This document shows positions 38,103 through 39,230 of a stretch of 61,339 nucleotides of DNA, piece by piece. How positions within the stretch are numbered: the stretch's first letter is position 1; every line of letters begins with the position of its first letter. Below the pieces are notes generated by a model. It worked only from the letters and a program-made list of their open reading frames with translations, did not search any database and was not told the origin of the DNA. The stretch spans positions 1 to 61,339 of the forward strand of contig SBGP01000016.1 of the NCBI GenBank assembly GCA_006226595.1, written 5' to 3'. The position numbers and the translations under genes are program-made. Source of the DNA: Deltaproteobacteria bacterium (GTDB lineage: Bacteria > Myxococcota_A > UBA796 > GCA-2862545).

Positions 38103-38218
38103 CGAGCCTCCCCCTCGCCGGTAACGCAACGACGAGCCCGAGCAGACAACTCAATGTTGCTCGGTCCGAGCCGTCACGCGGCGCGCGCCGAAGCTACCCT
38201 CTGATCAGGAGAAATGCT

Positions 38219-38299
38219 CTGACCCTTCGCCGCCTGGACCTGCACGCTCTCGCGCTCTGTTGCGCCTGCTGCTGCTGTGTCCACGCCGGGTGTCGCTGA
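38219..38299 (+). CDS. Putative cysteine-run leader peptide of the sulfur operon
   Basis: A 26-codon frame reading L-TLRRLDLHALALCCACCCC-VHAGCR and a stop, with seven Cys codons (six of them within codons 14-20). There is no ATG, GTG or TTG in frame; a CTG at 38219 is seven bases from AGGAG (38207-38211). An ATG at 38214 is one base out of frame (ATG CTC TGA): one extra C there, a -1 slip, or CTG initiation would give the peptide. The LT-RR-DL start and Cys run resemble the leader peptides known upstream of sulfur genes in actinobacteria. Its end overlaps the first arm of the hairpins at 38285-38349. Confidence 0.55.
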   Translation: MTLRRLDLHALALCCACCCCVHAGCR

Positions 38300-38373
38300 G
38301 CTTTCTCCGCAGCAGCACACCCGGCCTCGCGCCGGGATGGTGCGAGGCCCCGGTGACACTCGGAGGCCCTGTG
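38285..38373 (+). promoter_or_regulatory. Attenuator-like alternative hairpins before the sulfur operon
   Basis: Stem 1: GCCGGGTGT (38285-38293) with ACACCCGGC (38317-38325), extended inside by GCTG/CAGC. Alternative: CCCGGC (38320-38325) with GCCGGG (38331-38336). Stem 2: GGCCTCGC (38323-38330) with GCGAGGCC (38342-38349). GGCCTC can also pair with GAGGCC (38363-38368), which contains the ribosome site of the next gene. These pairings exclude one another, as in leader-peptide attenuators. Confidence 0.6.
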
Positions 38374-38781
38374 AATCTGTACGAACCCCTCGCTGGCGGC
38401 GCCCTCATCGGGCTTGCAGCCTCCCTTCTCTGGGTGGTGAGCGGACGCATCGCCGGCATCAGCGGCATCGTCGGCCAGCTGCTCGCGCGTGACGCGGACG
38501 GTCGCCGATGGCGGTGGTCCTTCCTGGGAGGACTCGCGCTCGGCGGCGCCCTCCTCGGCTGGCTCGACCCGAGCCGGGTCGCTCCCCTGCCCGACACCGA
38601 CCTCGCCACCGTGCTCGTGGCAGGCGTCCTCGTCGGTGTCGGCACGCGTCTCGCCAACGGGTGCACCAGCGGCCACGGCGTGTGCGGCATCCCCCGAGGC
38701 TCCACGCGAAGCGGCGTCTCCACCGGCCTGTACATCGGCGTCGGCATGCTCGTCACCGCATGGCTCGGAGGTGCGCGATGA
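38371..38781 (+). CDS. pmpA: YeeE/YedE sulfur-transport protein, first half
   Basis: A 136-residue membrane protein starting at GTG 38371, with CGGAGG five bases upstream. Four hydrophobic segments and the family motif GTRLANGCTSGHGVCGI are visible; the conserved cysteines in this family handle sulfur (thiosulfate or sulfane sulfur) during import. Here the transporter is split into two ~140-residue halves, a known arrangement. Its stop overlaps the start of the second half (ATGA). Confidence 0.9.
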   Translation: MNLYEPLAGGALIGLAASLLWVVSGRIAGISGIVGQLLARDADGRRWRWSFLGGLALGGALLGWLDPSRVAPLPDTDLATVLVAGVLVGVGTRLANGCTSGHGVCGIPRGSTRSGVSTGLYIGVGMLVTAWLGGAR

Positions 38782-39230
38782 TCCGCGAGGTCCTCGCTCC
38801 CTTCGTCGCGGGCCTGCTCTTCGCACTCGGGCTCGGACTGTCGCAGATGACGCGACCCGAGGTCGTGCGCAGCTTTCTCGCCTTCGAAGATCCGTCGCTG
38901 GCGCTGGTCATGCTCGGCGCCATCGCCGTGCACCTCGGACCGACCTGGTGGGGGCTGCGCCGGGGGCGCGCGCTCACCGACCGCCTGCACCTGCCGACCG
39001 CGACGCGCCTCGACGGACGGCTCATCCTGGGTTCCGTGCTCTTCGGCGCCGGCTGGGGACTGGCTGCGTACTGCCCCGGTCCCGCCCTCGTCGCGACCTT
39101 CGCCGGCAGCGGCCAGGGCGCGGTCCTCGTGCTCGGCCTCCTGCTCGGCATGGGGGCCGTGAACGCTTGGGATGCCATGAGCACCTCGGACCACCTGCCC
39201 GCGCAGGATCTGGCGGCGAATCCGGAGTAG
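38778..39230 (+). CDS. pmpB: YeeE/YedE sulfur-transport protein, second half
   Basis: A 150-residue membrane protein with four hydrophobic helices. The motif FGAGWGLAAYCPGPALV matches the second conserved cysteine loop of YeeE/YedE transporters. Together with the preceding gene it makes a full sulfur-importing channel. The soluble C-terminus (STSDHLPAQDLAANPE) is short. The thioesterase gene begins on the next base after its stop. Confidence 0.9.
   Translation: MIREVLAPFVAGLLFALGLGLSQMTRPEVVRSFLAFEDPSLALVMLGAIAVHLGPTWWGLRRGRALTDRLHLPTATRLDGRLILGSVLFGAGWGLAAYCPGPALVATFAGSGQGAVLVLGLLLGMGAVNAWDAMSTSDHLPAQDLAANPE

Follow-up and report, generated by a model that had tools for sequence, protein, structure and literature searches.

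Does the run of cysteine codons just upstream of pmpA act as a regulatory leader, and if so, what would it sense and at which step would it control the genes behind it? We addressed these questions in a 61,339-nt stretch of DNA from a deltaproteobacterium, called the window here, and in the genomes of its relatives. A preliminary description of the window had proposed cysteine-responsive attenuation by ribosome stalling. From comparative sequence analysis we consider it likely, with a probability of roughly 0.8, that the leader is a cysteine-responsive, ribosome-mediated attenuator of pmpAB; the features that enter this reading are collected in Table 1.

Table 1. Leader elements and target genes, in window coordinates.
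Feature	Position	Strand	Remarks
-10-like element TACCCT	38195..38200	+	from alignment and promoter scoring; TAGGAT at the equivalent spot in G001
Shine-Dalgarno site AGGAG of the uORF	38207..38211	+	7 nt before CTG
Candidate cysteine leader uORF	38219..38299	+	CTG start, 26 codons, TGA stop at 38297-38299; start, stop and length shared with G001
Cys cluster CCACCCC	38258..38278	+	codons 14-20; predicted stall site
Segment A, GCCGGGTGT	38285..38293	+	last uORF codons; would pair with B if the ribosome stalls upstream
Segment B, ACACCCGGC	38317..38325	+	can pair with A or C
Segment C, GCCGGG	38331..38336	+	second partner of B
B:C hairpin	38315-38343	+	inner 6 bp, outer GCAC/GTGC
Alternative 11-bp hairpin, GGCCTCGCGCC-GGGAT-GGTGCGAGGCC	38323..38349	+	extends the 8-base stem; source genome only, no counterpart in G001
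pmpA	38371..38781	+	YeeE/YedE half, Sulf_transp PF04143; GTG start; Shine-Dalgarno GGAGG at 38362-38366
pmpB	38778..39230	+	other YeeE/YedE half, DUF6691/Sulf_transp PF04143; 4-nt overlap with pmpA

The cysteine-codon frame and its start

According to family matches, pmpA and pmpB each encode one half of a YeeE/YedE-type sulfur transporter; their match to the solved transporter 6leo is weak. Read from CTG 38219, the upstream frame encodes LTLRRLDLHALALCCACCCCVHAGCR followed by a stop and has Cys at six of codons 14-20 and again at codon 25, confirming the 26-codon frame described earlier, and a uORF with a run of regulatory codons, as expected of an attenuator at the sequence level, precedes a gene of a sulfur-transport family. 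The preliminary description had regarded the lack of a normal start codon as the weak point of this frame. There is indeed no in-frame ATG, GTG or TTG close upstream, and the ATG at 38214 is out of frame, but CTG 38219 is a plausible start given the AGGAG before it. It is also conserved in the one relative of the same genus available for comparison (G001), so no sequencing error in 38205-38225 needs to be invoked. In G001 the CTG follows a GAGAGG Shine-Dalgarno-like site by 5 nt, and an in-frame ATG further upstream overlaps the TAnnnT element of that genome, which makes the CTG the better start candidate. CTG starts are rare, and we counted this against the attenuator.

The TAnnnT element lies 18-19 nt before the CTG in both genomes (18 nt in the source genome), and promoter scoring found only a weak -35 and no consensus promoter for the leader. 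From these elements the transcript is predicted to start some 10 nt ahead of the uORF, close to its Shine-Dalgarno site, and the source-genome uORF, with that ribosome site of its own, would be leadered. No Rfam RNA family matched the leader at its gathering score and NCBIfam gave no hit for the leader peptide; the TLRRLDLH part of the peptide, once likened to leader peptides of actinobacterial sulfur genes, is not conserved in G001, and the likeness is not supported.

The locus in G001 is orthologous and has the same gene order (a divergent aldo/keto reductase gene upstream; pmpB, thioesterase, lipoprotein and methyltransferase genes downstream), and its pmpA is 61% identical. This comparison, based on the two pmpA leaders available from the genus, bears on the frame as follows: First, the intergenic regions have diverged, yet the stretch from CTG to TGA aligns ungapped over exactly 26 codons. 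Second, Cys occupies codons 14, 15 and 17-20 in both uORFs. Third, the six shared Cys codons changed at 0/12 of their first and second positions and at 3/6 of their third positions, in contrast to 21/36 nucleotides changed in codons 2-13 (p = 4e-4 for the contrast with Cys codon positions 1-2). Cys codons that vary only at third positions next to diverged codons 2-13 indicate that the Cys codons are under selection in the uORF frame.

The same comparison bears on the idea that the Cys run is an accident, namely that pmpA has a Leu-rich N-terminal extension in its own frame, starting at TTG 38260 (LRLLLLCPRR...), which yields Cys codons when read out of frame. In the source genome no stop interrupts the pmpA frame across the leader, and CTG-rich Leu runs do yield chance Cys runs there. 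In G001, however, the pmpA frame meets a stop 3 codons upstream, which refutes the extension, and the Leu frame is not the pmpA frame; the codon changes fit the Cys frame, and in homologs of pmpA from other genera the alignment begins at residues 2-8 of P0001, with no upstream extension. We therefore regard an accidental origin as very improbable.

Within the 7.23-Mb source genome the CCxCCCC pattern occurs only twice, the second time inside a Leu-coding gene, and of 56 CCCC-type places the pmpA leader was the only one identified as a uORF preceding a sulfur gene. Other CCxCCCC matches within the family (G004, G006, G011, G013 and source contig C52) were out-of-frame Leu runs or coding sequence. 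Another intergenic Cys run in the source genome (L399, G000:C117:7772-7783; MRPRASRSCCCCWQLIVLHDD) probably reflects chance, since the downstream gene shows no sulfur link by eye.

Competing hairpins and the step of control

The preliminary description had placed a 9-base stem at the end of the frame, a second downstream partner for one of its arms, and an 8-base stem overlapping it by three bases, and all of these are present at those places: A:B forms the 9-base stem, C is the second partner of B, and GGCCTCGC (38323-38330) pairs with GCGAGGCC (38342-38349). The source genome thus has mutually exclusive stems with one arm within reach of a ribosome on the uORF. Scored against dinucleotide shuffles, the competing A/B/C stems gave p = 0.03 for the source-genome leader and p = 0.21 for that of G001, in which A:B is weaker; for ten leaders combined, the Fisher p was 2e-7, or 7e-7 once the two leaders of the source genus were left out.

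The earlier proposal to align the regions upstream of pmpA in relatives was borne out for the Cys run, its frame and the B:C hairpin. All ten B:C pairs are kept in G001, one of them by a two-sided change (A-U to G-C), and sliding the B:C partner breaks the pairing in the comparison of the two genomes; this covariation amounts to one pair, and a shuffle control is uninformative with two sequences. A:B keeps 5/9 pairs as aligned, and neither the 8-base stem nor its GGCCTC arm is conserved in G001. Taken together, the alignments indicate that the uORF, its Cys cluster, start and stop and the B:C hairpin are conserved, and that the same architecture stands before other cysteine genes (see below).

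When folding was modeled for the RNA freed by a ribosome stalled in the Cys cluster, A:B was the predicted structure; with the ribosome at the stop codon, A was covered and either B:C or the 11-bp hairpin was predicted instead. The leader may work as follows. Transcription would begin just 5' of AGGAG and translation at CTG 38219. With ample Cys-tRNA, the ribosome would reach the stop at 38297 and cover A, leaving B to pair with C or the 11-bp hairpin to form; either hairpin would lower expression of pmpAB, most likely because transcription terminates early, perhaps with the help of Rho. With scarce Cys-tRNA, the ribosome would stall in codons 14-20, A:B would pair, B:C would be blocked and pmpAB would be expressed. 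In this scheme, translation of the uORF from its CTG, the stall, which way expression responds and termination as the last step are all inferred.

Neither the source genome nor G001 has a U-tract after the hairpin, which makes intrinsic termination doubtful for the source-genome copy; Rho-dependent termination or translational control may operate there instead. In the latter case, the translation state of the uORF would respond to cysteine and set how accessible the pmpA ribosome site is, by GGCCTC:GAGGCC pairing or by coupling, while transcription would be unaffected; this is the mode attributed to mycobacterial polycysteine uORFs. GGCCTC is able to pair with GAGGCC at the pmpA Shine-Dalgarno site, the leader of a PAPS-reductase-family gene in G020 likewise has no U-tract, and translation attenuation is the mode named for Mycobacterium smegmatis cysteine genes. 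However, the modeled unpaired probability of the pmpA Shine-Dalgarno site was 0.27 in the stalled state and 0.39 with the ribosome at the stop, and low in all states; accessibility is barely altered, so simple sequestration is not supported, and the GGCCTC arm, which the preliminary description had read as complementary to this site, is not conserved in G001. Moreover, U-tract terminators follow the hairpins in sister leaders (pmpA in G068; cysteine synthase in G020, G029 and G034), which favors transcription termination. We thus consider translational control of pmpA a possible but distinctly less likely alternative to attenuation at the level of transcription. Of the earlier proposal as a whole, a Cys-run leader peptide with alternative hairpins that recurs before sulfur genes is supported, and sequestration of the ribosome site as the switch is not.

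Related leaders in the class and the phylum

We searched 71 genomes at the class level. In G068, which belongs to another family (f7), pmpA is preceded by the Cys-run uORF MTRAITPSQSLRHAAACACCPCREAG with the cluster CACCPC, and a 9-10 bp A:B stem competes with a B:C hairpin that runs into TTTTT. The uORF stop and pmpA are 82 nt apart there, 71 nt in the source genome and 76 nt in G001. Cys-run uORFs also lie upstream of cysteine synthase in four genomes (G020, G028, G029 and G034). The G020 uORF (L065, 3265-3430; MLLVRACCACCCCCPCGVGSG) is apparently leaderless, is followed by a terminator before the cysteine synthase gene, and has the cluster CCACCCCCPC, which includes CCACCCC as in the source-genome leader. 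The PAPS-reductase-family (PF01507) gene of the same genome has a Cys-run leader as well (L267). In G034 (L193) and G029 (L192), two tandem Cys-run uORFs precede one cysteine synthase gene and the first is followed by a U-tract terminator; this arrangement would be a double cysteine attenuator.

Among 178 upstream regions, which are not a random sample in that a Cys-run pattern search leading to G020 preceded the gene-based scans, four or more Cys within 8 codons close to a stop occurred in 7 on the sense strand and in 2 on the reverse strand, and all 7 sense-strand cases are leaders before pmpA or cysteine genes. The ATGs of four leader uORFs lie 6-8 nt after TTGnnn-N17-TAnnn[TC], a motif that precedes 0.085% of other ATGs; this spacing suggests that these four uORFs are probably leaderless, at the very 5' end of their transcripts.

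The range of target genes also speaks to what is sensed. Cys clusters can bind metals, and metal-sensing uORFs are known in other bacteria; the peptide could accordingly report a metal or the redox state (e.g. copper) rather than Cys-tRNA, its chemistry stalling or releasing the ribosome. The leaders, however, stand before genes for cysteine synthase, a PAPS-reductase-family protein and a sulfur transporter, and the spacing of the cluster is not conserved among the leaders (CCxCCCC, CCCC and CxCCxC), as codon-based sensing would allow. Metal or redox sensing is improbable on these grounds.

Within the class, the leader is absent from most loci of pmpA and of cysteine synthase, which weighs against the attenuator. 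Another 62 pmpA regions and 40 cysteine synthase regions, from the same phylum but outside the class, yielded no leader, and none turned up at 80 distant pmpA loci, at the cysteine synthase and PAPS-reductase-family genes of the source genome, or at cysS in ten genomes examined. In-frame TGA flags in the cysteine synthase matches turned out, in the five cases checked, to be the stop codons of those genes themselves. Meanwhile, cysE (serine acetyltransferase, TIGR01172) was not above the cut-off in ten class genomes (G000, G001 and eight relatives) that do have cysteine synthases, and the substrate route may differ there.

Known cysteine leaders and the role of PmpAB

Predictions of Cys-run leaders lacking terminators exist for mycobacteria, P. 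acnes and B. longum (Seliverstov 2005, PMC1262725), mycobacterial polycysteine short ORFs were seen by ribosome profiling (Shell 2015, PMC4633059), and such leaders were later reported as cysteine-responsive attenuators (Canestrari 2020, doi 10.1111/mmi.14498). The leaders described here share with the leaderless mycobacterial ORFs a Cys run near the uORF stop before cysteine or sulfur genes, the occurrence of leaders with no terminator, and, in several relatives, a uORF that begins at, or close to, the predicted 5' end of its transcript. Unlike them, the source-genome uORF belongs to another phylum, would start at a CTG with a Shine-Dalgarno site and targets pmpAB; conserved competing hairpins are present here, with U-tract terminators in sister leaders.

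A Cys-Cys attenuator with a terminator has also been predicted for cysS of Rhodobacterales (uORFC-8-2 motif, PMC8632094). Here as there, a uORF with tandem Cys codons is the basis for predicting ribosome-mediated attenuation, and an intrinsic terminator is present there as in several sister leaders; uORFC-8-2 has two Cys codons and occurs in alphaproteobacteria, and the source-genome leader falls outside it, its target being pmpAB and not a cysS with a U-tract. Like the classical proteobacterial attenuators (trp, his, leu, thr), our leader has a peptide rich in the regulated amino acid and a predicted A:B antiterminator opposed to a B:C terminator, segment A lying in the last codons of the peptide; unlike them, the amino acid is cysteine and the source-genome copy has no U-tract.

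Against this prior art of mycobacterial polycysteine leaders and the Rhodobacterales cysS attenuator, the phylum, the PmpAB target and the conserved CTG start are new, and no earlier report from myxobacteria was found in an incomplete literature collection, in agreement with the preliminary description. If the attenuator is real, cysteine attenuation would extend from Actinobacteria (and, by prediction, Rhodobacterales cysS, in the literature found) to Myxococcota. The evidence is about evenly balanced for a wider proposition, that one Myxococcota class has a cysteine attenuation regulon of independent origin, with both CTG-started and leaderless uORFs, tandem attenuators at cysteine synthase, and a control of PmpAB that would mark it as an assimilatory sulfur importer. 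The role of PmpAB is unsettled and has been considered not to be assimilatory (PMC11582611); contrary to that view, a cysteine-starvation leader upstream of pmpAB argues for a role in assimilation, which is now directly testable. The source genome also encodes a pmpA paralog, 51% identical, that has no Cys leader (L063, G000:C80:47000-52000); nearby ORFs resemble, by eye, a metallo-beta-lactamase-fold protein and a rhodanese-like protein, which would suggest sulfide or persulfide handling.
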